A DNA stretch of 64,000 nucleotides from Myxococcota bacterium. GTDB taxonomy: Bacteria > Myxococcota_C > UBA6777. The stretch spans positions 124,001 through 188,000 of the forward strand of contig JAKLKB010000002.1 of assembly GCA_023150835.1 (NCBI GenBank), read 5' to 3'. The translations under genes and the position numbers were made by a program. This document shows, piece after piece, positions 869 through 60,311 of this stretch; the first letter of the stretch is position 1, and the number at the start of each line of letters is the position of its first letter. Under the pieces are notes generated by a model. It saw only the letters and a program-made list of their open reading frames with translations. It was not told the DNA's origin and did no database searches.

Positions 869-928
869 GAGGCTTGTTTTCGTGAGGCTTGTTTTCGTGA
901 GGCTTGTTTTTGTGAGGCTTGTTTTCGT
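869..928. repeat. 15-bp tandem array upstream of ugd
   Basis: Four units of GAGGCTTGTTTTCGT, one with a C-to-T change, preceded by a partial unit from about 856. The array runs directly into the left end of repeat A1, whose edge also reads TTGTTTTCGT. It therefore looks like amplification of the edge of that repeat. It lies 75 bp upstream of the ugd start on the opposite strand. Confidence 0.9.
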
Positions 929-1048
929 GGGGCGTTGCCCCAAACCCCACAAGGGACCGATGGCCCCTTGACCCCGTGTTGGCGCAACGAACAGACCTTT
1001 TCACAAAGACAACACCGCCGATTGGGGGCCTACGAACACGTCTTCTTT
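921..1048 (+). repeat. dispersed repeat family A, copy A1
   Basis: About 128 bp. It has a first hairpin (GGGGC/GCCCC near 929-941), a second hairpin (CAAGGGACC/GGCCCCTTG, loop GAT, one mismatch, near 950-970), then TTGACCCCGT and a degenerate tail ending near CGAACACG followed by a T-rich run. The same order of blocks occurs at 7028, 11837, 31335, 56327, 57314 (inverted) and 60180. This copy has the most diverged tail. Confidence 0.85.
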
Positions 1049-1170
1049 ACCCACCGCGCAACTCCCACCTTGGTGAACTTTCGCGCCTTTGCTCTAGCAC
1101 AAAACGGAATACGCGATCAATGTTTGTGATGGAGCGGTTGAAGAAACAAACAACGCAGATCGTCTGAAAC

Positions 1171-1321
1171 GCCGATGGGATGAAGCATATCCATCATCTC
1201 GATATGCCGATGGGATGAGGCGTATCCATCATCTCAATATGCCGATGGGATGAGGCGTATCCATCATCTCGATATGCCGATGGGATGAGGCGTATCCATC
1301 ATCTCAATATGCCGATGGGAT
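1171..1321. repeat. 35-bp tandem array downstream of clpX
   Basis: Four full units and an 11-bp partial unit with a period of exactly 35 bp, each beginning GCCGATGGGATGA. Each unit contains a weak inverted repeat (GGAT ... ATCC) and could form a small hairpin. Units alternate at one position (CTCGATAT or CTCAATAT), suggesting the array grew by duplicating a two-unit block. It ends 9 bp from the clpX stop codon. The rest of the ugd-clpX gap holds only the 15-bp array and repeat A1; no gene or clear terminator is visible. Confidence 0.93.
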
Positions 1322-1330
1322 GGAGAGGGT

Positions 1331-2593
1331 TTAAGAAGCGATGCGACGGGAAGGTTCGGGTGTAGGCTTGGGGGGATGGATGGTTCGTTCGATCAAAGCG
1401 GAGTCGATGCGAAGTTCACGGGTGGTTTTTTTGGAGGGCAGTTCGTACATGAGATCGAGCATCGAACGTTCGAGGATGGAGCGCAGGCCTCGTGCGCCTG
1501 TCTTGCGTTCGAGGGCCAAACGTGCGACGGTTTGGAGGGCTTCGGGATCAAAATGCAGGGCGATCCCATCCAGCTCAAACAACCGTTGATATTGGCGAGT
1601 CAGGGCATTTTTGGGTTCGGTGAGGATACGGATCAAGGTTTCTTGATCGAGGCCGGAAAGGGTGGCGATCACAGGTAGGCGCCCGACAAATTCGGGGATG
1701 AGTCCGTAGCCGATCAGATCTTCGGGACGAACCTCTTTGAGCCAATCGCCTGTGTCTTTTTGGACGCGGGTTGGGATATCGGCACCAAAGCCGATCACTC
1801 GCTCTTGCATACGGCGTTGAATGATGGTTTCAAGGCCCGTGAAAGCTCCTCCGCAGATAAAGAGGATGTTGGTAGTATCGACTTGGAGGAAGTCTTGTTG
1901 GGGGTGTTTGCGCCCTCCTTTGGGGGGGACGTTGGCGACGGTACCTTCGAGGATCTTGAGCAGGGCTTGTTGAACGCCTTCACCAGAGACGTCGCGGGTG
2001 ATGGAGGGCGAATCACTTTTGCGGCTGATCTTGTCGATCTCGTCGATATAAACGATCCCACGTTGGGCTTGCTCGATGTCGTAATCTGCGGATTGTAGGA
2101 GGCTGACGAGGACATTTTCGACGTCTTCGCCGACGTACCCTGCTTCGGTGAGGGTGGTGGCGTCGGCGATGGCGAAAGGCACCTTGAGGATACGAGCCAA
2201 GGTTTGTGCCATCAAGGTTTTGCCGCATCCTGTGGGGCCGAGCAGCAAGATGTTTGATTTTTGCAGTTCGACGTCATCCGTTGAGAGATCGGAGTGGATG
2301 CGTTTGTAATGGTTGTGAACGGCCACAGCAAGGGTCTTTTTGGCGCGTTCTTGACCGATGATGTATTCATCAAGCAAAGCCTTGATCTGGGCGGGCTTAG
2401 GCAAAGAAAAGCGTGTGGAGCCGAATTCTTCGCGGTCATCGGACTGTTCGGCGATGATATCGTTGCAAAGGTCGATACATTCATCGCAGATATAGACCGA
2501 AGGTCCAGCGATCAGCTTGCGCACTTCGCGCTGGCTTTTTCCACAAAACGAACAAAACAGGTTGTCATCTTCACCGCTACGACGGGCTGCCAT
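1331..2593 (-). CDS. clpX: ATP-dependent Clp protease ATP-binding subunit ClpX
   Basis: AAA+ unfoldase that delivers substrates to ClpP. The 420-residue length is normal. The N-terminal zinc finger is intact (C14, C17, C36, C39), followed by the Walker A motif GPTGCGKT near residue 120, Walker B VYIDEID, and sensor 2 GARGLR. The VIGFGADI segment matches the IGF loop that docks on ClpP, so the pair should form a working complex. The start is ATG 2593. Only 6 bp separate it from the end of clpP, and the order tig-clpP-clpX is the one seen in many proteobacteria, so the two are almost certainly co-transcribed. Confidence 0.98.
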
Positions 2594-2599
2594 GGCGCG

Positions 2600-3217
2600 T
2601 TAACTTTCTTGTTTTTTGAGGGCGTCATCTTTACTCGCCACCACATGATCGATAATGCCCAAGGAACCGTAGTTTTTGGCTTCTTCGGCGCTCATAAAGT
2701 AGTCGCGATCGGTATGTTGAACGAGGATTTCCATTTTTTGCCCTGTATGACGGGCAAGGATCTCATGCAAGGCATCTTTTAAGCGCAGGATCTCGCGGGC
2801 GTGGATCTCGATCTCGGAGGCTTGGCCAGAAACACCTCCAAGTGGCTGATGGATCAAGATACGCGAGTTGGGCAAGGTGTAGCGCTTTTTGGCTGCGCCT
2901 GCGGCCAAAAGCACTGCGGCCATTGAAGCAGCTTGGCCAAGGCAAAGCGTCGAGACTTTGGGTTTGACGTACTGCATACAGTCATAGATCGCAAGGCCCG
3001 CCGTGACCGATCCACCGGGGGAATTGATATAGAGGTTGATATCTTTGTCTGGATCTTCGGACTCCAAAAACAGCATCTGCGCGATCATCAAGTTGGCGAC
3101 GTCGTCGTTGATCGGCGTCCCCAAGAAGATGATGCGATCTTTGAGCAAACGAGAATAGATATCATAAGAGCGTTCGCCACGGTGGGTTTGCTCGATGACA
3201 AATGGAATCAATGGCAT
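2600..3217 (-). CDS. clpP: ATP-dependent Clp protease proteolytic subunit ClpP
   Basis: Serine protease core of ClpXP, 205 residues. The catalytic triad is visible: S98 in GQAASMAA, H123 in [10 protein letters not shown] and D172 in HTDRDYFMS. The oxyanion-hole segment NSPGGSV is also present. The start is ATG 3217, with AAGGAAGG about 8 bases upstream. The gene is co-directional with clpX, which begins 6 bp downstream, and is separated from tig by 426 bp holding a 60-bp repeat. A clpP-clpX promoter is therefore expected in that gap. Confidence 0.98.
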
Positions 3218-3312
3218 CGGGTTTTCCTTCCTTGAGTGGATGGGTCTTTGGTGGAGCGGTGCAACGTGTGTCCCTTGTCCATCGCCAACGGCTCTTGCCG
3301 ATTCTATCGACC

Positions 3313-3470
3313 GCGATATCGGCTTGCGCTGTTCGAGCGATCGCTGTGCTGGTTTGGGCCGTTTGAAGGCCCGATGTGTCGGCCTGCGTTGTTCGGGCGA
3401 TCACTGCGCTGGTGTGGGCCGTTTGAACGCTCGATGTATCGGCTTGCGTCGTTCGGGCGATCACTGCGTT
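3313..3470. repeat. 60-bp imperfect tandem repeat upstream of clpP
   Basis: About 2.6 units with a period of exactly 60 bp, sharing TCGGCTTGCG, GTTCGGGCGATCACTGCG and GTGGGCCGTTTGAA with scattered substitutions. It occupies most of the 426-bp gap between tig and clpP, where the clpPX promoter or leader should lie. The period is a multiple of three, so one minus-strand frame stays open for 161 codons. That frame overlaps clpP and looks like a by-product. Nothing else is evident in the gap. Confidence 0.85.
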
Positions 3471-3643
3471 CACGGCGAGGGCGACTCGATCGATCACGAC
3501 GCAAGCTCGGAGCATTCGGTCGATCGTAGCGTTGGTTTCGCGCATTCGAGCGAACAAGGTGGAAAGAAGATATCCATCTTTTGAGAAAAGACAAGCAAGC
3601 CCTCCCCGCGCACAACGTCCACCCTCCCCAAGATCATGTGGCT

Positions 3644-5023
3644 TCACGCAGGGGCAGATATCTCGGAAGAAGCCGCATCTCGGGCATTTTCGGCCTCTTT
3701 TTTCTCGGCTTCGGCTTCTTCTTGCTTTTCTGACTCGATGCGGTGTTGAAGGGCTTCGGAAGAAAGGCGCTCGATGTGATGGGCGGCTTTTTCAAAAAGT
3801 CGATCCAAGGCTTTTCGGCTTTGGATCTCGCGCTTGAGCTCGTCGAGATCTTCTTGCGATTGCGCACTTTTGAGATAAGCCACCGAGCGGTTTTGGCGCT
3901 TGGCTGTTTCGGCCAATTCTGCATCAAGCTCGTGTTCTTCGACTTCCACAGCAAAGTCACGAACAGCTTGTTGGAGGATAATGCTGTTGCGGACTTCAAG
4001 GAAGGCTCCACGTCGGAGCGTCTCGCGCAGCGCTTCGGGATCAAAGAGGGGGCGATCACCTTGCATAAACATACGGAACTGCGCCAACATCCCGCGCACT
4101 TTGTTGTTGAGGTGGTTGTTAAGGAAGTGTGGCGGAACTTGTATGTCGCAGGCTTCACCGAGCTGTTGGAGCAAGCGGGACTTGGCGCGATCTTTACATC
4201 GCACCTGTCCATCTTGTTCGAGGTGGGTTCGGATCTTGGCGCGCATATCCGCAAGGTCGGTATAGCCGGCATCTACGGCAAGATCATTGTCAAGTTCAGG
4301 AAGAACGCGTTCTTGGATCGAAATCAGCTTGAGATCAAAGTGTTGCGTGTCTTGGCCTTCGACGGGGATCTCGACGTGTTTTTCTTCCTCAGGGATCATC
4401 CCAACAAGCGCATCTTCGGCTTCTTTTGGCAAAACGCCCAAGTAAGCGCCAAGCCGAACTTGGACATTCTCACGGGATTTCGCCTCGTCGCCTTGTTTGA
4501 ATTGGTATGTCACTTTCAGGGTATCTCCCGATTGGGCGGCCCGATCATCGATATCTCGCAAAGATGACAGCCGTTCGCGTTCACGCTCAATCTCACGATC
4601 TACGTCCGTCTCCGAAAACTCGACCTCTTCAACGAGCAGCGTTGTTTCGTTGATCTTGCTGAGATCAACGATCGGGCGGATCTCCAATTTGGCCGTAAAG
4701 GCGTACTCTTTTCCACGAAAGACTTCGCCGCTGTTGGAGTCGGGGATGCTCAAGATATCGAGGGATTTGTCCTTCATCAGTTCCGCGAAGGAATTCTCGA
4801 TCAAGCGTTTTCGTGCTTCTTCTTGGATGGCTTGGCGATAGTGGGGGAGTTGTTCGAAGACTTGGCGGGGGACTTTTCCGGGTCGAAAGCCTTTGAGGCG
4901 AACGTTGCGCGAGAGTTTCTGGAAGATCTCGTTGAGGGCAGAGTCCACATCAGACGCTGGGATCGCAAAATGGACTTGGCGCTCGACAGGGCTGACCTCT
5001 TCGATTCGGATATCGATCTTCAT
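3644..5023 (-). CDS. tig: Trigger factor, ribosome-associated chaperone and prolyl isomerase
   Basis: Folding chaperone that binds the ribosome near the nascent-chain exit, 459 residues (a little longer than the roughly 430 of E. coli). The ribosome-binding signature is present as GFRPGKVP near residue 45. The central region fits the FKBP-type isomerase domain, and the helical C-terminus ends in a Lys/Glu/Ala-rich tail. The start is ATG 5023, preceded by AGAAAGG. The open frame continues upstream through the tRNA-Leu gene, and that extension must be ignored. tig, clpP and clpX follow three tRNA genes on the same strand. Confidence 0.97.
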   Translation of the reverse strand: MKIDIRIEEVSPVERQVHFAIPASDVDSALNEIFQKLSRNVRLKGFRPGKVPRQVFEQLPHYRQAIQEEARKRLIENSFAELMKDKSLDILSIPDSNSGEVFRGKEYAFTAKLEIRPIVDLSKINETTLLVEEVEFSETDVDREIERERERLSSLRDIDDRAAQSGDTLKVTYQFKQGDEAKSRENVQVRLGAYLGVLPKEAEDALVGMIPEEEKHVEIPVEGQDTQHFDLKLISIQERVLPELDNDLAVDAGYTDLADMRAKIRTHLEQDGQVRCKDRAKSRLLQQLGEACDIQVPPHFLNNHLNNKVRGMLAQFRMFMQGDRPLFDPEALRETLRRGAFLEVRNSIILQQAVRDFAVEVEEHELDAELAETAKRQNRSVAYLKSAQSQEDLDELKREIQSRKALDRLFEKAAHHIERLSSEALQHRIESEKQEEAEAEKKEAENARDAASSEISAPA

Positions 5024-5122
5024 GGCGACCTTTCTGTTGGGAATAGACGAAGGTGTTGAATTTGGGATGGCTGCTTTGTTTGTTGGGGAAGCAAACGAAG
5101 AACACAGTAGCCTGAAAGGGAG

Positions 5123-5206
5123 TGCGATAGGGGGGAGTCGAACCCCCACGGTTGTTAAACCGCTGGATCCTAAGTCCAGTGCGTCTACCAATTCCGCCAC
5201 CATCGC
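5123..5206 (-). tRNA. tRNA-Leu (anticodon UAG)
   Basis: Type II tRNA with a long variable arm. Acceptor strands GCGATGG and CTATCGC pair (one G-U). The anticodon loop is CTTAGGA on a CTGGA/TCCAG-type stem, giving anticodon UAG. The T arm contains GGTTCGACTCC. Discriminator base A; CCA is not encoded. Read as protein, it gives the familiar spurious MVAELVDALDLGSSG peptide. Confidence 0.97.
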
Positions 5207-5213
5207 AAGAAAC

Positions 5214-5247
5214 AAAGGGGTTTTTTGTTGTTTCAAAAAACCCCTTT
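5214..5247. promoter_or_regulatory. Perfect 13-bp inverted repeat between two tRNA genes
   Basis: AAAGGGGTTTTTT at 5214-5226 and its exact complement at 5235-5247, with an 8-nt loop. It fills the spacer between tRNA-Arg(UCG) and tRNA-Leu. The stem is A/T-rich at both ends and no separate U-tract follows it, so it fits a processing hairpin at least as well as a rho-independent terminator. As a terminator it would uncouple tRNA-Leu and tig from the upstream tRNAs. Confidence 0.8.
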
Positions 5248-5249
5248 TG

Positions 5250-5323
<74 letters not shown>

Positions 5324-5372
5324 AAAAGAGAGGACGTGGTTGTTTGTGTGCTTGGGTTTGGTAGAGCGTTGA

Positions 5373-5446
<74 letters not shown>

Positions 5447-5605
5447 TTGGAAAAGGGACACTCTTTGGGAGCGATGCGTTGCCTGAGCCACAAAAAACAA
5501 GCGGGCGAAACAAGGCTTTCCGCCAAGCACACAGAACAGAGCGGAGTATATACAACGCTTTTGTCCAAGACGCAAGCAGATTTTCAAGCCTTTCCACAAG
5601 AGCGC

Positions 5606-6238: not shown

Positions 6239-6258
6239 CGATCTCGGCTCCCTTATCT

Positions 6259-6975: not shown

Positions 6976-7027
6976 CTTTTTCTCCCTCGATCCGCTCGCC
7001 TTCAAATTAGGCGTCACTTGTTGATTT

Positions 7028-7158
7028 GCTTTCGTGGGGCGTTGCTCCACACCCCACAAGGGACCTATGGCCCCTTGACCCCATATCGGCGAACAGAGCA
7101 TCGTTTTTCACACCAACGACTCTCTCGCTTGAAATACCGCGAACACGGGGTTTTTTGC
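7028..7158 (+). repeat. dispersed repeat family A, copy A2
   Basis: First hairpin GTGGGGC/GCTCCAC, second hairpin CAAGGGACC/GGCCCCTTG with loop TAT, then TTGACCCCATATCGGCGAAC and a tail ending GAACACGGGG plus a T-run. About 60 bp of the tail is almost identical to copy A5 at 56327, implying a recent common source. It lies between the divergent rph and infA genes. The rest of that 525-bp gap shows only a short direct repeat (AATCCGCAAGCCTTCG, twice) near 7240-7290 and the infA promoter. Confidence 0.88.
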
Positions 7159-7451
7159 CCGCTGCGTCACTCTCCATGATCGGAGCTCCGCGATCGGACC
7201 CGTACGCAAGACTTCGGCACTTTATCACCGCAACCGAGCTAATCCGCAAGCCTTCGCCCCTTTCTCATCGCAATCGGACCAATCCGCAAGCCTTCGGCAC
7301 TTTTTTGGCTACCGCGCCACTCCGAACGAGAAAGCTGTTGGCTTTTTGATCTCTTTGTGTTATCTCTACGCACGCTTTTTTTGCCCAAGGTGTTCTCTGT
7401 CCTTGCTTGTTCCTTGCCACTCGGCGGAGAGAACCCAACGGCCCACACTTT

Positions 7452-7479: not shown

Positions 7480-7500
7480 TGCTTTGTAGAGAGGTGTTTT

Positions 7501-7832: not shown

Positions 7833-7870
7833 GTCGATCCGACCCCGCGCTTTCTTTGTGAGGCCCCGTC

Positions 7871-9215: not shown

Positions 9216-9229
9216 CGGAGGAGGATAGA

Positions 9230-11137: not shown

Positions 11138-11162
11138 CCTAAGAGGCTGCCTAGAAAAAGGT

Positions 11163-11435
11163 TTGATGGGTAGAAAACGCGGGCATCACGTGGAGGATAT
11201 CGAAAAGAAGAGTCCACGGAAAGCGCGGAAAGTACAGAAAGCGCGGAAAGTACGGAAAGCGCAGAAAGCGCGGAAAGTACAGAAAGCGCAGAAAGCGCAG
11301 AAAGCGCGGAAAGTACGGAAAGCGCGGAAAGCGCAGAAAGCGCGGAAAGTACAGAAAGCGCAGAAAGCGCGGAAAGTACAGAAAGCGCAGAAAGCGCAGA
11401 AAGCGCGGAAAGTACGGAAAGTACGGAAAGTACGG
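11163..11435 (-). repeat. dispersed repeat family C, copy C1: conserved flank plus 24-unit 9-bp array
   Basis: The flank at 11167-11219 (GCGGGCATCACG ... AAGAGTCCACGG) is the complement of the flank of copy C2 at 49013. The array at 11220-11435 is exactly 24 units of AAAG[CGC or TAC][A or G]G, giving four unit types. A block of seven units (types D-A-B-D-D-A-C) occurs twice, showing segmental duplication inside the array. Both strands stay open in one frame because the unit is 9 bp; the plus frame would encode a Lys/Arg/Val/Ala-rich peptide. Confidence 0.93.
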
Positions 11436-11480
11436 GGTTTCTCTGTGCGCTCAGACTTTCTGCCTTCCTCCCCCTCGCGG

Positions 11481-11595
11481 CAGCAGCGAGGCTTTGCGAG
11501 CGTCGCAGGGAGAGGGTTACCTTGGTAAAAGATAACGTCATAACCTTCCTTCGCAGCAGCGAGGCTTTGCGAGCGTCGCAGGGAGAGGGATGCCC
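11481..11595. repeat. Direct repeat of about 40 bp
   Basis: CAGCAGCGAGGCTTTGCG and the following GAGCGTCGCAGGGAGAGGG occur at about 11481-11517 and again at about 11554-11590, separated by a short unique stretch that includes TTGGTAAAAGATAACGTC. It lies between repeats C1 and B1 in the gene-free region 11138-12098. Confidence 0.85.
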
Positions 11596-11645
11596 GAAGG
11601 GCAGGGGTGAGCGTCACGCGATTTGTCCCCCAGTAAGAGCCAAAG

Positions 11646-11836
11646 ACCGTGAACAGGGGAGGGAGGAAAAGTCGGAGGCAGCGAGGTTTTGGTTTTCCAT
11701 GCCACATACTGTTTGCACGAGAACTCGTCTTTGCCTGCTCCAACTTCCCCCCGTTGGCCGGGGGGATTGAAGGGTGGCGAGCAAAAGAAAAAGCGATCAA
11801 GACCGACTCTACGAGGTTTCCACCTTCACCTAACGC
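11646..11836 (+). repeat. dispersed repeat family B, copy B1
   Basis: About 190 bp matching B2 (48719-48990) block by block: GTGAACAGGGGAGGGAG, AAAGTCGGA, a central A/T-richer section, AACTTCCCCCCGTT with its complement, then GCGATCAAGACCGACTCTAC and GAGGTTTCCACCTT. It ends in CACCTAACGCCTATGGGGC, where repeat A3 begins directly. Unlike B2, it lacks a clear matching left terminal inverted repeat, so it may be truncated on the left. Confidence 0.85.
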
Positions 11837-11966
11837 CTATGGGGCGCTGCCCCATGCCCCGCAAGGGAGCACCGCTCCCTTGACCCTGTATAGATGGGGC
11901 GAGCAGCATTTTTCAAAGCCAACAGATCGACCGCTTGAACGCTTGCGAACGCGGCTTTTTTTTGGC
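11837..11966 (+). repeat. dispersed repeat family A, copy A3
   Basis: First hairpin GGGGC/GCCCC, second hairpin with a perfect 9-bp stem CAAGGGAGC / GCTCCCTTG and 3-nt loop ACC, then TTGACCCTGTAT and the conserved tail ending GCGAACGCGGC plus T8. The complement has an open frame encoding a peptide with the segments KKSRVR, VGFEKCCS and VKGAVLPCGAWG, shared with copies A4, A6 and A7. Confidence 0.9.
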
Positions 11967-11992
11967 TGCGGCTCGCTCCGAGATGTGTACGC

Positions 11993-12083
11993 ATCCAAAA
12001 GATATCGCTGTGCTAGACACCGAACATTGCGAAGATTCCAAAGCTGCAAAAACGATCCAAAAGATATCGCTGTGCTAGACACC
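11993..12083. repeat. Direct repeat, 29 bp, spaced 62 bp
   Basis: ATCCAAAAGATATCGCTGTG followed by CTAGACACC occurs at 11993-12021 and at 12055-12083 as an exact copy. Together with C1, the 40-bp direct repeat, B1, A3 and C4, it makes the whole gene-free stretch 11138-12098 a mosaic of repeats. I see no credible gene there. Confidence 0.9.
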
Positions 12084-12086
12084 CTC

Positions 12087-12141
12087 TCGTTCCGTGTTTT
12101 ACGAAGCGCGAAACTCCCGCTGGTCGTTGCCTGTGGACTGT
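12087..12141 (+). repeat. dispersed repeat family C, copy C4 (array reduced to one unit)
   Basis: Contains CGTTCCGTGTTTTACGAAGC, then AACTCCCGCTGGTCGTTGCC and TGTGGACTG, matching copy C2 (GAAGCGCGCAACTCCCGTTG, GTCGTTGTCCGTGGACT). Only one 9-bp-type unit remains. The first part is also the coding sequence for the last residues of the adjacent membrane protein on the minus strand. Confidence 0.8.
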
Positions 12142-31334: not shown

Positions 31335-31466
31335 GTTTTTGTGGGGTTTTACCCCACACCCCACAAGGGAGCGCGGCTCCCTTGACCCCGTATTCGCGGA
31401 GAGAGCAGATGTTTTTCAAACCAACAAAACTGCCGCTTGATATGGCGCGAACACGGCTTTTTTTGG
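31335..31466 (+). repeat. dispersed repeat family A, copy A4, inside the hydrogenase operon
   Basis: First hairpin GTGGGGT/ACCCCAC (7 bp, loop TTT), second hairpin CAAGGGAGC / GCTCCCTTG (perfect 9 bp, loop GCG), then TTGACCCCGTATTCGCGGAG and a tail ending GCGAACACGGC plus T7. The complement is open and encodes the family peptide ([31 protein letters not shown]). Lying between hydG and the small-subunit gene, it would be transcribed with the operon. Confidence 0.92.
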
Positions 31467-34329: not shown

Positions 34330-34400
34330 TTTCCGTGTTTTCCGTGTTTTCCGTGGACTGTTATTCGATATCCGAGCGATGTGTGATCGTAAGATATTGC
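34330..34400 (+). repeat. dispersed repeat family C, copy C3 (three units)
   Basis: Units TTTCCGTGT, TTTCCGTGT and TTTCCGTGG (9 bp each) at 34330-34356, then the flank ACTGTTATTCGATATCCGAG corresponding to ACTCTTCTTTTCGGTATCCT of copy C2. It lies in the 244-bp gap between the convergent hydrogenase operon and murF. Confidence 0.8.
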
Positions 34401-34476
34401 GTAGACGCCCGATTCTTGGGCAGCCACACCTGTCTGCCCCTACACCGTTACGGTAACACACCCTGCGGATTTCGTA

Positions 34477-35964
34477 TTATTCGATATCTTCGCCATACAA
34501 GGGGAGGATCGGTGTATGGCGCGTCGGGTTGTAGGCTTCGATCCGTTGGGAGATGCGTTCGAGCCTCATCCCACGGCTACCTTTGACCAGAACCCATGCT
34601 CCTTGAACGAGCAGGGGTTGAAGGGCTGCCCACATCACCTCAAAAGAGGCTTCTTCAAAGGCATGAACCTTTTCGGCGGGCATCCCATGATCGAGGGCGC
34701 TTTGGGCCATGCCTTTTGCGCGGGGTCCAAATGCAAAAAAGGCGGATATGGCGTGTTGTGCGACCAGTTCACCGATTTTTGCGTGCATCTCGGTTTCGGC
34801 ATTACCGAGTTCGAGCATATCCCCCAAGATCGCGATCGATGGGGCGTCTTGGGCAAGATCGACAAGGGTTTGCAGGGCTGCTTTTTTGGAAGCAGGATTG
34901 CTGTTGTAGCAATCATCGATCAGATGGACACCTGCATCGGTGTGGATCACACGCAAGCGCCGACCTTCGGGCTGTAGCTGTTCAAGCCCCGCGATAATTG
35001 CTTGCGCTGACGCACCCAAAACCGCTGCGGCAGCGATCGCCCCCAGCGCGTTTCCGATCTGGTGGCGTCCAACCAAGGGCAAGCGGAACGACAGCCGCCC
35101 ATGTGCATAAGAATGGATGCTCACAGAAAAGCCCTCTTCTCCGAGGGGTGTGGCTTGGAGCAAGGTGACGAACTGAGCCTCTTGCGGCAAACGCGACGCT
35201 GCATCGGCATCCGTCGAATAGTAGACCTTCGCACAAGTCAACGAAGCAGCTTTTTCCATAATCTTCGGATCATCCGCGTTGACGATCGCGATGTCGTGTC
35301 CTCCTAAACCCAAGAAAAGCTCACCTTTGGCCCTTGCGACCCCATCGAGAGATCCGACACCTTCGAGATGCGCGGGGGCCACGAGCGTGATCCAGCCGAT
35401 ATCAGGACGAGCGATCTCCGTCATCCGAGCGATCTCGCCAAAGGCGTTCATGCCCATCTCAAGGACCGCATAGCGATGTTTTGGTTCGAGTCCAAACAAC
35501 GTCAACGGAAGTCCGATCAGATTGTTGAGATTGCCTTTGGTTTTGAGCGTGGGTGCGACTTGTTGCAAGATGGCTCCCAACATCTCTTTGCCTGTGGTTT
35601 TTCCGCTCGATCCTGTGATCCCCACCACTTTGCAATGTGAGCGATGACGGGAAAGCCACGCCGAAGCAAGATCGCCAAGCGCGGTCAACGTGTCTTCCAC
35701 CAAGATCACAGGTAGATTCGCAGCCCCCCCGCGCTCGGCCTCCGTCAACGGTCGCTGCACCAAGACTGCAACCGCCCCACGTTGTAGGGCAGACGGTACA
35801 AAGGTATGCCCATCACGAGCCGCCACCAACGCAACAAACAACGCTCCTTGTGGGAGTTCGCGTGAGTCTGTGGCCACACCACGCACCACCAATTCGGGGT
35901 TTCCGCTGATGACTTCACCGCCCGTTGCTGCCGCGATCTCCGCTACACGCATCTCCAAGGTCAT
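34477..35964 (-). CDS. murF: UDP-N-acetylmuramoyl-tripeptide--D-alanyl-D-alanine ligase
   Basis: Cytoplasmic ATP-dependent Mur ligase that adds D-Ala-D-Ala to the UDP-MurNAc tripeptide, 495 residues. Motifs: TDSRELPQGALFVAL (N-terminal UDP-binding domain), the P-loop GITGSSGKTTGKEM near residue 113, NLNNLIGLPLTL, EMGMNAFGEI, and DDCYNSNPAS (catalytic and ATP-binding loop), then GDMLELG. The start ATG 35964 overlaps the stop of murE (ATGA), a coupled pair. It is convergent with the hydrogenase operon. Confidence 0.96.
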   Translation of the reverse strand: MTLEMRVAEIAAATGGEVISGNPELVVRGVATDSRELPQGALFVALVAARDGHTFVPSALQRGAVAVLVQRPLTEAERGGAANLPVILVEDTLTALGDLASAWLSRHRSHCKVVGITGSSGKTTGKEMLGAILQQVAPTLKTKGNLNNLIGLPLTLFGLEPKHRYAVLEMGMNAFGEIARMTEIARPDIGWITLVAPAHLEGVGSLDGVARAKGELFLGLGGHDIAIVNADDPKIMEKAASLTCAKVYYSTDADAASRLPQEAQFVTLLQATPLGEEGFSVSIHSYAHGRLSFRLPLVGRHQIGNALGAIAAAAVLGASAQAIIAGLEQLQPEGRRLRVIHTDAGVHLIDDCYNSNPASKKAALQTLVDLAQDAPSIAILGDMLELGNAETEMHAKIGELVAQHAISAFFAFGPRAKGMAQSALDHGMPAEKVHAFEEASFEVMWAALQPLLVQGAWVLVKGSRGMRLERISQRIEAYNPTRHTPILPLYGEDIE

Positions 35965-50764: not shown

Positions 50765-52699
50765 ATGCACAACGAGACACGGGCTTTCATGCGCCCAAAC
50801 GGCTTTTTTTGGCTTTCTCTTGTGGTGATGGCGGCTGGTTTGGGTTTTTGGGGTCATCTGCATTGGCAAAGCCCGCCTTGGCATGACCAAGCCTCCCTTC
50901 CATTGAGGCTTTCCGCGATCGGTGGGCATGCTCTCTGCGGTGCGTTGTTGATCGGTTTTTTCGTGGGCTTGGCCCCCCTCTCTTTGCGTGCCGCGATCCT
51001 TGAACACCCGCGCCTTTTTGCGATATCGCGAGGATATCTCTTGCTTTGGTGGTGCGTGGCGTGGGCGGGCATGGGCCTTCCGTTGTTTGGGTGGGCGGGG
51101 ATTCTTGTCTGGGGGGTGTGCGCCTTGGTATATGCTTCCCATCAAAACCGCGAAGCGAGCTACGCTGAGACCTTACAAGCCGCCCTTCCCTTCGGTGTTT
51201 TGGGTGGAATGATGATCCAGTTCGCTCCTGCTGCTTTGGCGTGGCTTTGGTGGATCGCCCCTTGGTTCGGGCTTATTCTAGCACTATGCAGTCTCCCGCT
51301 TTGGCGCTGGACCTCCGATACGCGAGGGGCCTTGCTTGGGATCTTGCTTCTGCTCTTTGGGCTTGGCCCTTGGCTCGCTCGTGAACAGCGATACACAAAC
51401 GCCCTCTCTCTCGCCCAATCTTCCGATCTTCAACCCGCGACTCTCCGCCCTTTCCTTCGCCGTCTCGTCCAAGAAACCGCGATCCCCACCTCTCACACTC
51501 AAAAGCTCTTCGGTCTCTTTGTGGCTCGGCCCAATACACAACACGAAGCCCTCCGCTGTCTTCTCCTCCATTGGACCCGCCGATCGACCCCTTCTGCTCT
51601 TCCGCAACCCCTCCTTCAACAGATCACTTGGAACGCACGCACCGAACGCCTCTTGCGCGAACAACTGCTCCCGCACCCTTCCCATCAAGCGGCTCTACGA
51701 CAACAAGCCCTCGCCCTGCTTTCTTCTCCCCAAGACGCTCCGCTCGCAGCGCATCTGTTGTCTTTCTTTGCTCGCCACCTCCCACAACATCGCCCCATAC
51801 TCTCCGCTTCGATCTCCACCCTTTACTTCTCTTCCACACACCAAGATCCCCTTTACATCGACCTTCTCCGATCACTGCTCCAACCCATACACGGAAAAGA
51901 CGCATCCATCGCGCTTTTGCGCTTCTTTTTTCAGCACCACCCCCAACAGCCCGACGCCCAAAAACAACAATGGCTCCGCGCTCTCCTTTCCTTAAACGCC
52001 CAAGACACCGCACTCTTGCGACGCACCTTCTCCGAACCCATCCGCGCACAGATCCGACAGCACTTGCGATCCCTCGACACACCACAACAGATCCTTGGGA
52101 TGCAGCTACTCGCCCACCTCGGCCACTCCGACTCCGAGTGGCTCGCCACCTTTTGGGATACCCTGCCCCCCTCTTTTTTGGACACCAAGCTGCGCCATCC
52201 TCATCCTTCTTTGCGCGCCTACGCCCACGCCCTGCGTTTCCAGCAATGGGCCTCTTACCCCTTACGCAACCAACAACTCCTCCAAGCCCTCCGAGATCCC
52301 TCCCCGCTCGTCCGACACCTCGCCCTCTCCGCCTTCCCTTCCATCCACCAACAACTCCAACACATCGCTCCGCTCGCCCCCATCGATCCTCGCCTCCATC
52401 CCTTGCTCTTCCAAACTGCCCTTCAAGCACTCCGCGCACAACCCCAAGATATCGAACCCATCGCTTACACCCTCTCCCGTCTCCACCTCACAACCACCCA
52501 AAAACAACAAGCCTTCTCCGCTGCCAAAACACTCCTCCCCCTCCAACAAGCCCGATCTGCCCGTTTTCTCCGCTCTCTCTTTGCTCTGCTCGCCACCCTC
52601 GAACCCCAACCCACCACACGCCCCACCACGCAACCTATCACGCGCCCCACCACACAACCCATCACGCGCCCCACCGCACGCCCCGCCCCAGCACGATAA
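50765..52699 (+). CDS. Membrane protein with HEAT-like C-terminal domain, second of the paralogous pair
   Basis: About 644 residues. About six membrane segments in the first 215 residues, then a long soluble alpha-helical region with HEAT-like spacing (for example PSPLVRHLALSAFPSIHQQL). It ends in a Thr/Pro/Arg tail with TTQPITRP repeated. The start is ATG 50765 with AAAGGAA about 9 bases upstream and 5 bp after the previous stop, so the pair is co-transcribed. It is about 200 residues longer than its neighbour because of the helical region. No catalytic motif is visible; the family is unknown to me. Confidence 0.72.
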   Translation: MHNETRAFMRPNGFFWLSLVVMAAGLGFWGHLHWQSPPWHDQASLPLRLSAIGGHALCGALLIGFFVGLAPLSLRAAILEHPRLFAISRGYLLLWWCVAWAGMGLPLFGWAGILVWGVCALVYASHQNREASYAETLQAALPFGVLGGMMIQFAPAALAWLWWIAPWFGLILALCSLPLWRWTSDTRGALLGILLLLFGLGPWLAREQRYTNALSLAQSSDLQPATLRPFLRRLVQETAIPTSHTQKLFGLFVARPNTQHEALRCLLLHWTRRSTPSALPQPLLQQITWNARTERLLREQLLPHPSHQAALRQQALALLSSPQDAPLAAHLLSFFARHLPQHRPILSASISTLYFSSTHQDPLYIDLLRSLLQPIHGKDASIALLRFFFQHHPQQPDAQKQQWLRALLSLNAQDTALLRRTFSEPIRAQIRQHLRSLDTPQQILGMQLLAHLGHSDSEWLATFWDTLPPSFLDTKLRHPHPSLRAYAHALRFQQWASYPLRNQQLLQALRDPSPLVRHLALSAFPSIHQQLQHIAPLAPIDPRLHPLLFQTALQALRAQPQDIEPIAYTLSRLHLTTTQKQQAFSAAKTLLPLQQARSARFLRSLFALLATLEPQPTTRPTTQPITRPTTQPITRPTARPAPAR

Positions 52700-52703
52700 A
52701 TGT

Positions 52704-53750: not shown

Positions 53751-53822
53751 CAAGCGCTCTTTTCTTTACTTTCATGGCCCGCGTCCCTCCCCAACGGAGC
53801 CATCGCGTCCAAGGGATGGGGA

Positions 53823-54233: not shown

Positions 54234-54435
54234 AATCGCCATCCTCCGCAAATGAGTAAGGGTTGAAAACTCCGAATCTATCGGTGTTTCGCGATGGCTG
54301 CCCTCGCCTCTTCTCGGAAACGGCAGCCCTACAACCTAGCACAACGGTCCGAAGGCGAGGTTCTATCGTACGCGACGAAGGCCCACCATAACCAACATCC
54401 CACAGCACGTCTAGTCTTTTTGCAAAGCGCAAGGA

Positions 54436-56103: not shown

Positions 56104-56326
56104 GTGTTTGTCCTCGCAAAAAAACGCTGTGAAGCGCACTCCGACCCAACGAAGCGCATCAAGTATCTTGTTGATATAGCCGCTTTTTTGCGCAAAAAGC
56201 AACTTCCTCTCTGATCATCCTCGCCAAATCTCCCCCCAAAGTTGCGCCCGCCACGCTGGTTTGCTTTCTGACCTCTTGCATCGTATACATCCCTGCACGT
56301 TCTCTTTGGTGCCACTTGTCGGATGA

Positions 56327-56453
56327 GTTTTGTGGGGCCTTGCCCCACACCCCACAAGGGGTCGCGACCCCCTTGACCCCATATCGGCGAACAGATCATC
56401 GTTTTTCACACCAACGACTCTCTCGCTTGAACAGGCCCGAACACTGGGGTTTC
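56327..56453 (+). repeat. dispersed repeat family A, copy A5
   Basis: First hairpin GTGGGGC/GCCCCAC (7 bp, loop CTT), second hairpin with an inner stem GGGGTC/GACCCC and a bulge, then TTGACCCCATATCGGCGAAC and a tail nearly identical to A2. It lies in the 423-bp gap between the low-complexity gene and the divergent gene at 56527; nothing else is recognisable there. Confidence 0.9.
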
Positions 56454-56526
56454 CTCTCTCCCATCCAACCCTAGCCCAAGAGTTCCGCCACATCTCGTCA
56501 ACCACCCATCATAAGGACTGAAACGG

Positions 56527-57234
56527 ATGTCATCGCCTTTTTATACGAATACTTCGACGCCACCGCTTTTTCGCACACTTTTTTCTTTGGAGGGCATTGG
56601 CTTCGCTTCGATCATCTTGGTGTTTTGGGCGTTTTGGGGTGTCCCTTGTGCCTACGCGACCCCTGTCACCCCTCCCATCGAGCGTTCCGCGTCCAACCCG
56701 CCGCCCACCCAAAGCTCTCCCATCTCCCCATCCATGCGGGTTTTGTGGCGACTCCATCAAGAACAGCTCCGCCTTGTCGACACCAGCGTCCTGTACAAAG
56801 GCCCCAAAAAAATGGAGCTGACCTTCTTAGGCGGCGGTTACGAATCGATCTTCCAAAGCTCCCCCAAAGCCTTGCGCCTCGCGGGTAGCTTTCACGGCCT
56901 ACAGATCGGTGGTTTCGTCCTCAGTTCGATCGGCCTTGGAGCCACTCTCGCAGGAACCTTGATCGTGATCATTACTCCCCAAGCCGTCGTCCAACCCACT
57001 GCAGGCGGCGTTTTGGGTCCTGAACTTTTTTGGGGCCTACTGCTCGGTGGAACCGCCCTCAGCTTGATCGGCTCCATCCTTGCGCAAAGCTCCTACGGTA
57101 TGCTTTATCGCGCCGTCGATATCTATAACCGCGAAACCTTCGAGAAGATCTTTCGTGACGCCAACCAAGGACAACTCCCCCAAGCCCACACACTCCCGAA
57201 ACGACGCACCCTTCTCTATGCCGCCACCCCCTAA
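56527..57234 (+). CDS. Hypothetical membrane protein
   Basis: 235 residues. A hydrophobic N-terminal segment (IGFASIILVFWAFWGVPCAY) could be an uncleaved anchor or signal; two further membrane segments at about 122-150 and 160-180 (IGGFVLSSIGLGATLAGTLI; WGLLLGGTALSLIGSILAQ) are separated by a short loop. No catalytic motif. The start is ATG 56527 with a weak ribosome-binding site. It is divergent from the low-complexity gene and followed by an inverted repeat A6. Family unrecognised. Confidence 0.65.
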   Translation: MSSPFYTNTSTPPLFRTLFSLEGIGFASIILVFWAFWGVPCAYATPVTPPIERSASNPPPTQSSPISPSMRVLWRLHQEQLRLVDTSVLYKGPKKMELTFLGGGYESIFQSSPKALRLAGSFHGLQIGGFVLSSIGLGATLAGTLIVIITPQAVVQPTAGGVLGPELFWGLLLGGTALSLIGSILAQSSYGMLYRAVDIYNRETFEKIFRDANQGQLPQAHTLPKRRTLLYAATP

Positions 57235-57313
57235 TCCGCTCCTTCCCAAAAGACACAACACCCCGAAAATCCCCATGTACACGCCAACTCAAGCCAAACA
57301 GACACAACATCGC

Positions 57314-57438
57314 CAAAATCCCCGTGTTCGCGCTCGACCAAGCGGCTGTGCTGTCGGTTTGAAGAACGTCGGTTCGCCCCATCGATACGGGGTCAAGGGA
57401 GCCGCGCTAAGGGCGCGGGGTACGGGGCAGCGCCCCAA
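57314..57438 (-). repeat. dispersed repeat family A, copy A6 (inverted)
   Basis: The only copy on the minus strand. It reads GGGGCGCTGCCCC, then GGCTCCCTTGACCCCGTATC and the conserved tail with GCGCGAACACGGGG. The left arm of the second hairpin is rearranged, and a different stem (CCGCGC/GCGCGG) can form instead. The complementary frame is open (RVRARPSG, VGLKNVGS, GVKGAAL). It lies between the convergent 56527 gene and metF. Confidence 0.85.
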
Positions 57439-57470
57439 ACAAACAAATCGTGCAAGAGATCCTACCCCAA

Positions 57471-58427
57471 CTAGAGATGTTTCGACAACATCTCCATCAA
57501 GCGCACAAAAGGTCGAGTGCGTTGCATGATGTAAAAGTGCAGGATGGGTGCGCCTTTTTCGAGCAGATCCATCGCTTGACGATAGGCCCATTCGACGCCG
57601 ACTTGCGTCACTTCGGCGGGGGTGGTGGCCTCCATGACGCTTTGGGTCAATTCATAGGGGATATCGATGTGAAAGGAGCGGGGGATCGAAGTGAGTTGCT
57701 GCTTCGAGGTCATGATCTTGAGGCCGGGGATGATCGGCATGGTGATGCCGAACTTGCGAGCGCGATCGCAAAAATCGAAATAAGACTGGTTGTCATAAAA
57801 CATCTGCGTCACCGCAAACTGCGCACCCGCCTCTTGTTTTTTCTTCAACATCTCCAGATCGAACATCCGATTGGGCGCTTCAAAGTGTTTTTCAGGGTAA
57901 GCCGCCACACCGACGCAAAAGTTTGTTTTTGCGGCATCCATCAACTGTTCTTGGTACACACCGTGATTCATGTTGACGATCTGCTGCACAAGATCCGAGG
58001 CGTAGGTGTTGCAGGTACGCCCGGGCGCAAGCTCGCGCTTTGGCTTACCATCCCCTCGGATCGCCAACAGGTTTTCGATCCCCAAGTAGTTGAGTTCGAT
58101 CAGCGCATCTTCGGTTTCTTCGCGGGTAAAGCCTGCGCACAAGATGTGAGGAACGGGTTCAATGTTGTACTTATATTTGATCACTGCACAAAGGCCGAAA
58201 GTTCCCGGGCTTTTGCGCCGTGTTCGCCGATGAAACGTGCCATCGGGTCGCTCTTCCCACGCGATATCCGCCGCATGGCTTGTCACGTTCACAAACGGCG
58301 GATTAAAGGGCCGAATGGATTCGATGGCTTCGTGAAATTCGGTAATATTTCCCCCTCGCTTGGGCGGGATGATCTCGACGCTAACTTGGGGATTTCGGGC
58401 GGATTGGATATGATCGATCACTTTCAT
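57471..58427 (-). CDS. metF: Methylenetetrahydrofolate reductase
   Basis: Flavoprotein that reduces 5,10-methylene-THF to 5-methyl-THF for methionine synthesis, 318 residues, the usual bacterial length. Motifs: SVEIIPPKRGGN (substrate/flavin site with the catalytic Glu), NVTSHAAD, HILCAGFTREE, GIENLLAIRGDGK, VAAYPEKH, and QMFYDNQSYFDF near the C-terminal third. The start is ATG 58427 with AAAGG about 8 bases upstream. The open frame upstream to 58520 is not conserved coding. A hairpin lies in its leader at 58503. No methionine synthase or other met gene is adjacent. Confidence 0.96.
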   Translation of the reverse strand: MKVIDHIQSARNPQVSVEIIPPKRGGNITEFHEAIESIRPFNPPFVNVTSHAADIAWEERPDGTFHRRTRRKSPGTFGLCAVIKYKYNIEPVPHILCAGFTREETEDALIELNYLGIENLLAIRGDGKPKRELAPGRTCNTYASDLVQQIVNMNHGVYQEQLMDAAKTNFCVGVAAYPEKHFEAPNRMFDLEMLKKKQEAGAQFAVTQMFYDNQSYFDFCDRARKFGITMPIIPGLKIMTSKQQLTSIPRSFHIDIPYELTQSVMEATTPAEVTQVGVEWAYRQAMDLLEKGAPILHFYIMQRTRPFVRLMEMLSKHL

Positions 58428-58502
58428 CCGAGAGACCTTTGATGGTGCCTTGGGGGAGTCAAAAACCAAGGTAAACCATCCAAAACAAATGTTTTTTCCA
58501 CA

Positions 58503-58529
58503 AAGCAACCACTTTCGCACAGGTTGCTT
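58503..58529 (-). promoter_or_regulatory. Hairpin in the metF leader
   Basis: AAGCAACC (58503-58510) and GGTTGCTT (58522-58529) form a perfect 8-bp stem with an 11-nt loop, about 75-100 nt upstream of the metF start. A possible minus-strand promoter (TTCTTG, 17 bp, TATATG) lies just upstream, which would put the hairpin in the leader RNA. It does not match the SAM-I, SAM-II or SAH riboswitch consensus as I know them. It lies in a 331-bp divergent gap with no other feature except a TATGCTT before the 58759 gene. Confidence 0.55.
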
Positions 58530-58758
58530 GATCTTGCGTGGTTGTCACCATATACCCCTTCGCAAATTTTTCAAGAAGAAAGGAGGCCCAGCACAGCACG
58601 CGATAGCCCGCACATCGCTCCAAACGACTTCCGCAACACCAAGAGCAAAAACGTGATTTCTTCTTCCCCCTTTCGCTGGCCGATCTTTTTCCGTATGCTT
58701 TGGCACACCACAGCGCGCCGCGCCTCAACGCCAACACAACCAAACCAAAGGAGCGGGA

Positions 58759-60123
58759 ATGACCGAGCCAAACAACACATCCTCTCGTCCTGTCGTTGCA
58801 GTCCTTGGAGCCGGACCTGCGGGTCTTTATGCCGCCAATAAGCTCGCCCAAGAAGGTGTCGATGTCTTGCTGATCAACCGCGACATCAAACCCGGTGGCC
58901 TTGCAGAATACGGCATCTACTTTGACAAGCACAAAATGAAAAACGGCCTACGCAAACAATTCGACCGTATCCTCGCCCAAAAAAACATCGCCTACATGGG
59001 GCATATCGAAGTCCGTCAACAAGGCGGAACGTTGACCCTCGAAGAGTTCGAAGACTTGGGCTGCGCCGCTTATCTTGTGGCGGTCGGCGCACAAGGAACG
59101 CGAAAGCTCGGATATGACGGCGAAGACCAGATCTCGGGACTCTTTCACGCCAAGGATCTCGTCTACCACTACAACCAACTCCCCCCCTTCGCTTCGCAGG
59201 AGTTTTCCATCGGCCAACACGTCGGTATCATCGGCATGGGCAACGTCATGGTCGATATCGCCCACTGGCTTGTGTGGGAAAAAAAGGTCGCCTCCGTGAC
59301 AATCCTTGCTCGTCGTGGCCCCGCAGAACGCGCCTACACCGACAAAGAGATGCGCGAAGTCATCCGCGCCGTCGACCTTGATGCTCTTGATGTCGAGATC
59401 GCTCGGATCGCCGACAATCTCCGTTCCGTCGGCCAAGATCCCGAAGCCCTCAAAAAAGAATTGCGCGAACCTCTCGACAAAGCCGAAGTCTTCGACAGTC
59501 CAACACGCATGGCCTTTCGCTTCCTTGTCGGTGTCAACAAGCTGATCGCTGGCCCTGACGGTCGACTCGCTGCGGTGGAGCTTGGACACAACCAACTCAT
59601 CCAAAAAGGCGACCGCCTCAACGCCCAATCCACCGGCCAAACCGAGATCCTCCCCTTGGATACGCTGGTGTACGCCATCGGCGATCAAGTCGACGAAGGA
59701 CTCGGGCTGCCTTTTCGCAACGGACAATTCCTAACACCAAGCGGCCCAAACCCCCACGAACCCGAAAAAGCCCGCTACGAAGTCAAAGACCCCCAACACG
59801 ATCAACCCCGCCCCGGCTGGTTTTTAGGCGGATGGGCGCGCATCGCCTCTGATGGACTTGTCGGAAAAGCCCGTGCTGACGGCGAAACCGCTGCAAACGA
59901 AGTCTTGCGCTGGCTCAAACAACACAACCCCCAAAGCGCCGACCTCGCTTCCTGTCAACAACGGCTCCGCACTCTGCTTCAACAAAAGCAACACCCCTTC
60001 GTCGAATACGCCGACGTCCTCACACTCCAATCCATCGAACAAGCTCGCGCCGATGCCCTCGGTGTCCCCCTCTTTAAATTCAACACCAACGAAGAAATGC
60101 TTGCTGCCATCCAAAAATCCTGA
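58759..60123 (+). CDS. Ferredoxin/adrenodoxin-type NADP+ reductase
   Basis: FAD- and NADP-binding oxidoreductase, 454 residues. N-terminal GAGPAGLYAANKL (FAD) and the later NADP motif GIIGMGNVMVDIAHWL, followed by ILARRGPAERAYTDKEMREV, match the adrenodoxin reductase/FprA family. The FLGGWARIASDGLVGKARAD segment is the conserved C-terminal FAD/NADP site. Residues about 390-450 are a small extra helical domain. It would transfer electrons between NADPH and a ferredoxin, but the partner is unknown. ATG 58759 has AAGGAG 5 bases upstream. A TATGCTT lies about 65 bp upstream. Confidence 0.88.
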   Translation: MTEPNNTSSRPVVAVLGAGPAGLYAANKLAQEGVDVLLINRDIKPGGLAEYGIYFDKHKMKNGLRKQFDRILAQKNIAYMGHIEVRQQGGTLTLEEFEDLGCAAYLVAVGAQGTRKLGYDGEDQISGLFHAKDLVYHYNQLPPFASQEFSIGQHVGIIGMGNVMVDIAHWLVWEKKVASVTILARRGPAERAYTDKEMREVIRAVDLDALDVEIARIADNLRSVGQDPEALKKELREPLDKAEVFDSPTRMAFRFLVGVNKLIAGPDGRLAAVELGHNQLIQKGDRLNAQSTGQTEILPLDTLVYAIGDQVDEGLGLPFRNGQFLTPSGPNPHEPEKARYEVKDPQHDQPRPGWFLGGWARIASDGLVGKARADGETAANEVLRWLKQHNPQSADLASCQQRLRTLLQQKQHPFVEYADVLTLQSIEQARADALGVPLFKFNTNEEMLAAIQKS

Positions 60124-60179
60124 GAAGCTCGGTCAACGCGCTCGGTTTATTTGATCGTGTGGGGTTCCACTCCACTGTT

Positions 60180-60311
60180 TGATCATGTGGGGTTCCACCC
60201 CACGCCCCGCAAGGGAGTCCGACTCCCTTGACCCCGTATCGACGGGAAGAACAGGCGGTTTCTACACCAACAGCGGCTCCGCTCGAAGTACCGCGAACAC
60301 GGGTTTTCTCG
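60180..60311 (+). repeat. dispersed repeat family A, copy A7
   Basis: First hairpin GTGGGGT/ACCCCAC (7 bp, loop TCC), second hairpin CAAGGGAGT / ACTCCCTTG (perfect 9 bp, loop CCG), then TTGACCCCGTATCGACGGGA and a tail ending GCGAACACGGG plus T4. The left end is tandemly duplicated: TTTGATCGTGTGGGGTTCCA occurs 27 bp upstream as a partial copy. The complement is open (RVRGTSSG, VGVETACS, GVKGVGLPCGAWG). The rest of the 369-bp gap before the esterase gene has no other feature. Confidence 0.9.

Follow-up and report, generated by a model that had tools for sequence, protein, structure and literature searches.

Small hairpin repeats are common in bacterial genomes, and whether their folds do anything is usually unclear. 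A sequence-only reading of one stretch of Myxococcota DNA raised this question for a family of dispersed repeats (family A) whose hairpin arms appeared to change together: is the fold under selection, or are the copies templated by a structured intermediate? The stretch, hereafter the window, comes from a Myxococcota bacterium (UBA6777; GCA_023150835.1, contig JAKLKB010000002.1, 124,001-188,000 of the forward strand; 64,000 nt). Using a 129-bp profile (nhmmer), we found exactly seven copies of family A in the window, confirming all those claimed at 921, 7028, 11837, 31335, 56327, 57314 (inverted) and 60180 (Table 1). A common block order had been described (hairpin 1, hairpin 2, tail and T-run), but hairpin 2 of A6 is broken. 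Immediately before A7, a hairpin-1-like unit is duplicated in tandem. The extent that had been claimed was too short: a third hairpin lies in the supposed tail, and well-preserved copies carry terminal inverted repeats (TIRs). These transposon ends, the third hairpin and a pair between loop and linker were all added on follow-up.

Table 1. Family A copies in the window, with positions counted along the window
Copy	Core	Strand	nhmmer E	Hairpin 1	Hairpin 2	Loop-linker pair	Other parts
A1	923-1051	+	5.8e-26	927-943	950-970	T-A	then tail and T-run
A2	7030-7158	+	1.9e-33	7034-7050	7057-7077	T-A	
A3	11835-11963	+	1.2e-26	11839-11855	11862-11882	C-G	
A4	31337-31465	+	5.8e-37 (top score of all copies in the searched set)	31341-31357	31364-31384	T-A	C-run linker 31358-31363; hairpin 3 stem 31396-31399 with 31433-31436, then T-run
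A5	56328-56456	+	1.6e-30	56332-56348	56355-56375	T-A	
A6	57313-57441	-	5.1e-24	57437-57421			
A7	60183-60311	+	1.6e-28	60187-60203	60210-60230	C-G	

The inverted ends, together with target duplications of 5-6 bp, identify family A as a non-autonomous transposon of MITE-like type, the TIR evidence coming from the quarter to a third of the copies that retain ends. The full unit measures 167-171 bp, with inverted ends of 14-17 bp (TAGGASTTACGCAG...CTGCGTNASTCCTA; element ends given as TAGGA...TCCTA). TIR-like ends (at most four mismatches) were found at the 5' side of 24% and the 3' side of 33% of 278 copies, relative to 0.6% in random DNA. Both ends are kept in 34 copies, 32 of which span 167-171 bp, and exact 5-6 bp target duplications were found for eight of the 34 (0.24% with shuffled flanks). 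These ends recur in a sister family of 116 bp, where 10 of 13 cases show exact duplications. Most copies, including those of the window, have lost recognisable ends; some 3' ends in the window still resemble the TIR (A1, with three mismatches). A different 5' module was found in 20 copies, and A3 bears an alternative 5' module (...GCCTATGGGG). Insertion polymorphism with empty sites was observed between this genome and genome G001, and 15 of 42 mapped sites are empty in the other congeneric genome. Both A4 and A5 are absent from G001 (A5 as an empty site, A4 with an imperfect direct repeat of ~17-19 bp flanking the insert), as is the region 11138-12096, which contains A3; conversely, one G001 copy is absent at window position 52680. 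The ~170-bp unit has no coding capacity. No autonomous partner was found when 2.3 Mb of sequence were scanned for pairs of these ends spaced by 0.25-3 kb, and none of the five genes of the genome from PF01609, the one transposase family covered, has both ends.

Seven copies in 64 kb had been taken to imply a high genome load, and this was borne out. The exact genome-wide core count, once scaled, gives about 540-610 copies per genome; an estimate of 1000 copies from sampled contigs was dropped in its favor. The genome contains 374 occurrences of the core CAAGGG-N(3-25)-CCCTTGACCCC, and the congener 365 (reversed control: 0). Family A is also abundant in the one congener examined, and a profile search did not find it in sister genera.

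We then analyzed the fold. Four contacts covary with E near 0 in an alignment of 284 copies tested against a home-made tree-based null: 11-15, 13-27, 35-41 and 63-97, the last of which lies in the third hairpin. The sequence-only reading had asked for such a test; the opposite result, stem columns without covariation beyond phylogeny, did not appear. The change between C-G and T-A reported for the last pair of hairpin 1 was confirmed, and this pair has the strongest covariation in the family. The series reported at the end of the hairpin-2 stem (AGC/GCT, AGT/ACT, ACC/GGC) is partly compensatory, but ACC/GGC holds an A.C mismatch. Contact 13-27 joins the centre of the hairpin-1 loop to the base just 5' of hairpin 2; covariation shows the pairing, and its predicted geometry would be that of a one-pair pseudoknot. 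Overall, 88.5% of cells were paired versus 34-51% with partners slid, and the loop-linker pair was paired in 97.5%. A long outer stem (CCCCGTRTT/AACACGGGG) lowers the energy of the minus strand, but we rejected it since its variation is one-sided, with no covariation.

Such patterns could arise free of any function by quasi-palindrome templating, where strand switching within hairpins keeps their arms complementary. Three of the covarying pairs (11-15, 35-41 and 63-97) indeed sit in hairpins, and arm-copy events exist: in A6, the 5' arm of hairpin 2 has been swapped for its own complement (CCCTT versus AAGGG in the G001 orthologue, whose hairpin 2 is intact; pairwise alignment), and another orthologue presents a 20-base deletion of hairpin 2. 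However, contact 13-27 lies outside any palindrome, and its covariation is as strong as that of the other pairs and is also seen across phyla. Since the loop-linker pair belongs to no hairpin, palindrome templating is unable to make it. Of the two possibilities raised at the outset, selection on the fold is the better fit, and templating, with pairs that are unlinked and one of them outside the hairpins, appears very improbable.

Family A might alternatively be an ordinary MITE whose hairpins are incidental, with covariation generated by a few subfamilies or by gene conversion. The TIRs and target duplications agree with this, and so do orthologues with nearly identical flanks whose cores differ by up to 21%, resembling conversion or accelerated change (11 orthologue pairs). 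In some orthologues the core has changed further than the flanks (27/126 versus 3/139 in one case), which is not predicted by simple purifying selection on the insert; A1 and A7 differ from their G001 orthologues at 2/126 and 5/124 positions, respectively. However, the four covarying pairs are mutually in linkage equilibrium: the states of 11-15 and 13-27 are distributed 57/45/66/65, though these pairs are interleaved within five bases. Subfamilies or long conversion tracts therefore do not explain the covariation, which also exceeds the tree-based null. The most diverged copy has no near-identical donor, its best paralogue across the whole genome being just 87% identical, and replacement of the whole copy by an existing donor was rejected. 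With the same pairing rule also present in unrelated sequences, we consider the ordinary MITE unlikely.

The search was extended across taxa, leaving the covarying bases free. The same architecture was found in IMG/VR (phage) contigs, on MobV plasmids and in a small number of unrelated genomes, which confirms the earlier remark that elements of this kind exist in several phyla. The loop-linker rule held in 18/18 of one set of cases outside the genus, and the pair was Watson-Crick in all 50 fully formed cases. Among the 69 cases with a stem-closing pair, the loop-linker pair was C-G or T-A in 62 (Fisher 1e-14); the association was absent from 20 chance hairpins. After redundancy collapse, 43 of 49 clusters pair at position 13 (shuffled mean 23, maximum 34), and none of the other loop positions exceeds the shuffle in this way among these clusters. 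The C-run of the linker also matches the G-run of the stem (3/3 or 4/4), in 14/14 cases for three and 55/58 for four. In Rfam 15, the window matched tRNA families only, A4 had no hit even with the threshold relaxed to E<=1 (best E 3.5), and 17 further loci carrying or resembling the motif gave no match. No earlier account was found by sequence string or by description in literature consisting mostly of journals open without subscription. The element thus seems to be widespread, structured and previously undescribed. Several phyla share its architecture and pairing rule, and these occurrences may have a common descent.

The genomic context was then considered for clues to the role of the element. 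Copies are intergenic in 94% of cases. In tandem gene contexts, 72 copies are co-oriented versus 46, and IMG/VR contigs present 18 versus 7, which makes for a modest orientation bias of about 60-70% sense. The median distance of co-oriented copies from the preceding stop codon is 42-47 bp, and convergent gaps are enriched (68/242 versus 126/680); A4 is located ~40 bp 5' of a start codon. Together with the T-run conserved at the 3' end of the core, both the distance to stop codons and the convergent enrichment would be expected of a transcription terminator, with transcripts ending at the T-run of the element. However, this T-run is ~70 bases away from hairpins 1 and 2, the outer stem expected before it shows no covariation, no T-run follows the motif in other phyla, and termination has no need of the loop-linker pair. 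We find a terminator distinctly improbable.

The folded molecule might also be a single DNA strand bound by a protein during transposition, plasmid transfer or replication, as for REP/RAYT or oriT/relaxase systems. The motif lies near a relaxase gene on two MobV plasmids, one of which carries two inverted copies. At the covarying pairs, the two kinds of wobble intermediate (G.T and A.C) are similarly infrequent, as would fit either strand and either RNA or single-stranded DNA; the minus strand folds better in the consensus, yet a choice of strand from wobble counts was abandoned for lack of this asymmetry. On the other hand, the Mob_Pre relaxase was not found in G000 or G001, the relaxase of genome G027 is at least 178 kb from the copies examined, and the motif adjoins many unrelated genes in IMG/VR contigs. 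An oriT identity, prompted by the two plasmid hits, is not general. The 3.2-kb locus of the sole intact Y1/RAYT-like gene of the genome (L010) contains no copy, and RAYT-driven spread was rejected. The DNA-strand reading is a minority possibility.

We favor a scenario in which the family A unit spread through the genus as a MITE-like transposon with a structured module as cargo. The module comprises hairpin 1 (...GGGG-Y1-N-Y2-N-R1-CCCC...), a linker [A/G]CCCC, a purine R2 and hairpin 2, to which a third hairpin and the T-run are added in this genus. Covariation shows that Y1 pairs with R1 and the loop base Y2 with R2, so that hairpin 1 and the linker would form an H-type pseudoknot whose second stem is a single pair. 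Because the C-run of the linker equals the G-run of the stem, the linker probably follows the G-C stem, with which it may form a triple helix. Since the module is found in other phyla, family A would represent its transposon-borne expansion. The fold is retained as the sequence drifts, in copies that are mostly intergenic with a modest excess 3' of a co-oriented gene, and the likeliest role would be that of a folded RNA, either at the 3' ends of transcripts or within intergenic ones. We consider it fairly probable that family A is a widespread structured module amplified by a transposon, and that the module would act as a folded RNA close to the 3' ends of genes. We propose more tentatively that the tandem-hairpin module could be a three-dimensional nucleic-acid motif not described before, with a single function conserved among bacterial phyla and their phages and plasmids, which the family A transposon amplified to >500 sites in one genus. 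The fold of family A can be read from covariation, tertiary contact included, and the same contact is seen in unrelated genomes. Should the motif serve a single purpose in all these phyla, then the standard RNA library lacks a structured element. The genus supplies hundreds of natural variants of the module on a transposon backbone.

Several known systems resemble family A in part. In H-type pseudoknots with loop-stem triple contacts, the hairpin loop base pairs with a base after the stem while the linker spans the stem. Family A would differ from these by its second stem of one base pair, its C-run matched to the G-run and its chained hairpins. Like BOX, RUP and SPRITE of Streptococcus pneumoniae, which are small, interspersed, non-autonomous and strongly folded intergenic repeats, family A is small, dispersed, folded and non-autonomous, with TIRs and target duplications as in BOX and RUP (PMC3049150). 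BOX is modular, SPRITE resembles a terminator and is over-represented between convergent genes, and all three proliferated in the past and now move slowly (PMC3049150). Family A has other TIRs, another sequence and another internal architecture, and the portions of that source consulted mention neither a loop-linker pair nor recurrence across phyla (PMC3049150). With the GTAG/CGTC REPs, REPINs and RAYT systems (PMC3733652, PMC3116915) it shares palindromic extragenic sequences in high copy number, but it lacks the GTAG/CGTC tag (stem foot TTTT(G)TGGGG / CCCCAC-ACCCC), presents two to three hairpins with matched C-run linkers as well as a TIR and target duplication, and has no RAYT beside its copies. 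With prokaryotic MITEs in general, including ERIC, of which Photorhabdus luminescens has 711 copies, it shares TIRs, short target duplications, intergenic location, foldability and non-autonomy (PMC10969869). Unlike these, family A has a GC-rich core (58%) and an interior fold whose conservation shows in covariation as the TIRs decay, and its interior motif is also found outside the MITE, in other phyla.

We aligned 284 near-complete family A copies and tested every column pair against a null in which the inferred substitutions were redistributed along the tree (a home-made, R-scape-like test with 40 simulations). Four contacts yielded E-values near 0, by core column: 11-15, which closes the loop of hairpin 1 (C-G or T-A); 13-27, joining the hairpin-1 loop centre to the base just 5' of hairpin 2 (T-A or C-G); 35-41, in hairpin 2; and 63-97 (A-T or G-C), in a third hairpin inside what the sequence-only reading had called the tail. 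The co-varying hairpin arms proposed by that reading are thus borne out by contacts 11-15 and 35-41. Contact 13-27 is respected in all seven window copies. When partners were slid by 1-3 columns, pairing fell from 88.5% to 34-51%. The states of 11-15, 13-27 and 63-97 are each about 50:50 and statistically independent of one another (joint counts for 11-15 and 13-27: 57/45/66/65), which argues against subfamily descent or conversion tracts, since either would give linkage. These results show that family A has a conserved fold with a tertiary contact. Folding programs also propose an outer stem, which the covariation analysis did not support.

Some copies depart from this layout. Copy A6 now has CCCTT where the 5' arm of hairpin 2 would read AAGGG. 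A few other copies share this exchange of the arm for its complement, which has the look of strand switching within the hairpin. A variant seen in aligned copies from L119, L135 and L044 carries CCCC-GAGA-GGGG directly 3' of hairpin 2, an extra GNRA-type hairpin replacing GTRTTGG.

A 129-bp profile built from copies in the window and nearby found exactly the seven window copies that had been claimed. The CAAGGG-N-CCCTTGACCCC core matched 374 times in the 7.56-Mb assembly of the window genome and 365 times in the sole congener compared (Myxococcota MAG KLAP109), and the reversed pattern, used as a control, gave zero matches. Scaling the exact core count by the share of profile matches containing it yields ~540-610 copies per genome, with half or less of the two congeneric genomes read, in agreement with the high load first anticipated. 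The core is absent from three compared genomes of other genera in the same family; the covariance model gave zero matches in two of these and only two weak matches, with the same layout, in the third.

The unit first described is a real repeat but an incomplete one, covering just the interior of a longer element. Where a copy is well preserved, its core is bounded by TAGGASTTACGCAG(TTG) and (CAA)CTGCGTNASTCCTA, for a total of 167-171 bp. Direct 5-6 bp duplications adjoin 8 of 34 two-ended copies (0.24% expected), and some sites occupied in one of the two genomes, the window genome or the congener, are empty in the other. A4 and A5 are filled here and empty in the congener, and a congener copy is missing at window 52680. 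Family A is a transposon-derived repeat. All seven copies in the window are old; resemblance to the TIR survives at some of their 3' ends only. Flanking A4 is a direct repeat of ~17-19 bp that is imperfect and exceeds the usual duplication in length. An alternative 5' module ending GCGCGTATGGGG was present in 20 of 278 copies, and a search of 2.3 Mb for a longer element with family A ends found none.

Locations of family A cores and other features
Feature	Location	Strand
A1	window 923-1051	
A2	window 7030-7158	
A3	window 11835-11963	
A4	window 31337-31465	
A5	window 56328-56456	
A6	window 57313-57441	-
A7	window 60183-60311	
Hairpin-1-like tandem units	window 850-960; 60150-60200	
Three consecutive tRNA genes	window 5123-5446	-
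ATACGAAATCCGCCCGTTGTGTGATCGTAAA...GTAGGGGCAGCC repeat	window 34361-34478; L034 4750-4890; elsewhere	
116-bp family examples (window genome, G000)	L016 12534-12649; L025 1468-1583; L051 10645-10760	
RAYT-type Y1 transposase gene (G000:C113)	L010 1450-2214	-
Orthologues with and without hairpin 2	L049 14798-14925; L131 5496-5603 (congener)	
Inverted three-hairpin copies around one gene	L205 2676-4605	

A second family, of 116 bp, shares its ends with family A (TAGGASTTACGCAG) around another interior (...GGGCGGTTCGCGAACCGCCC...). Exact 5-6 bp target duplications accompany 10 of 13 copies, and ~40 further pattern matches occur in the window genome, some counted on both strands. This family looks younger than family A. 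The ATACGAAATCCGCCCGTTGTGTGATCGTAAA...GTAGGGGCAGCC repeat often adjoins family A copies, and several abundant short repeat families form mosaics in this genome. Hairpin-1-like units stand in tandem immediately upstream of A1 and A7 (at A7, about two here versus four in the congener, G001). The RAYT-type gene, apparently the sole intact one of its Y1 kind in the genome, holds a long QIGQA-type repeat of GGGCAGGCACA units.

Some orthologous cores are far more diverged between the window genome and the congener than their flanks (27/126 versus 3/139 differences for L064/L149; 21/127 versus 11/127 for L049/L131). Across 11 orthologous pairs, variable columns differ at 24% and conserved columns at 5%. 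Short-tract ectopic conversion, hairpin-driven mutation or fast compensatory change are possible sources of this divergence. In L131, a clean 20-base deletion has removed hairpin 2.

The same pairing rule was found outside the genus. Through weak database matches we derived the general form GGGG-Y1-N-Y2-N-R1-CCCC-N(2-4)-[A/G]CCCC-R2-C-hairpin, where Y1-R1 closes the hairpin-1 loop, Y2 is the loop centre and R2 the purine after the linker C-run, and we searched IMG/VR with patterns leaving the loop and R2 unconstrained. Y1-R1 and Y2-R2 were obeyed in 18/18 instances of the first pattern. A looser pattern returned 89 distinct, partly related instances: at Y2-R2 the 69 with a closed loop showed C-G in 47 and T-A in 15 (Fisher 1e-14), all 50 whose stem is extended and whose second hairpin closes were Watson-Crick, and no association was seen among the 20 that lack the closing pair. 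When instances were collapsed at 75% identity, loop position 13 was paired in 43 of the 49 cluster representatives, against a mean of 23 and a maximum of 34 in shuffled sets; the remaining loop positions show no association, and the base before GGGG gives a weaker signal (21; shuffled mean 12, maximum 21). The C-run of the linker and the G-run of the stem match in length: 3 and 3 in 14/14 cases, which were not selected for, and 4 and 4 in 55/58, an agreement partly built into the search pattern. Three-hairpin chains keep the rule at every internal step. The strict form is patchy: among 386 genomes surveyed, four outside the genus have it (17 copies in one). Rfam 15 has no family for the motif. 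On L205, a metagenomic contig from another bacterial lineage, the gene between two inverted three-hairpin copies looks like a Na/Pi-cotransporter.

Family A copies are intergenic in 94% of 295 cases. Copies co-oriented with neighbouring genes are in moderate excess over opposed ones, 72 versus 46 in tandem gaps in the window genus and, for the motif on IMG/VR contigs, 18 versus 7. Hairpin 1 and the linker would form a compact pseudoknot with linker-stem contacts, since the linker probably lies in parallel orientation along the stem's G-strand, placing R2 at the loop. With less confidence than this geometry, we favor RNA as the folding molecule because of the sense bias. Roughly one third of copies are opposed to the genes, and G.T and A.C intermediates are equally rare at covarying pairs, which makes single-stranded DNA a second, less probable candidate. 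A MobV-type relaxase is absent from the genus (two genomes checked), although on two MobV plasmids the motif lies beside the relaxase gene.
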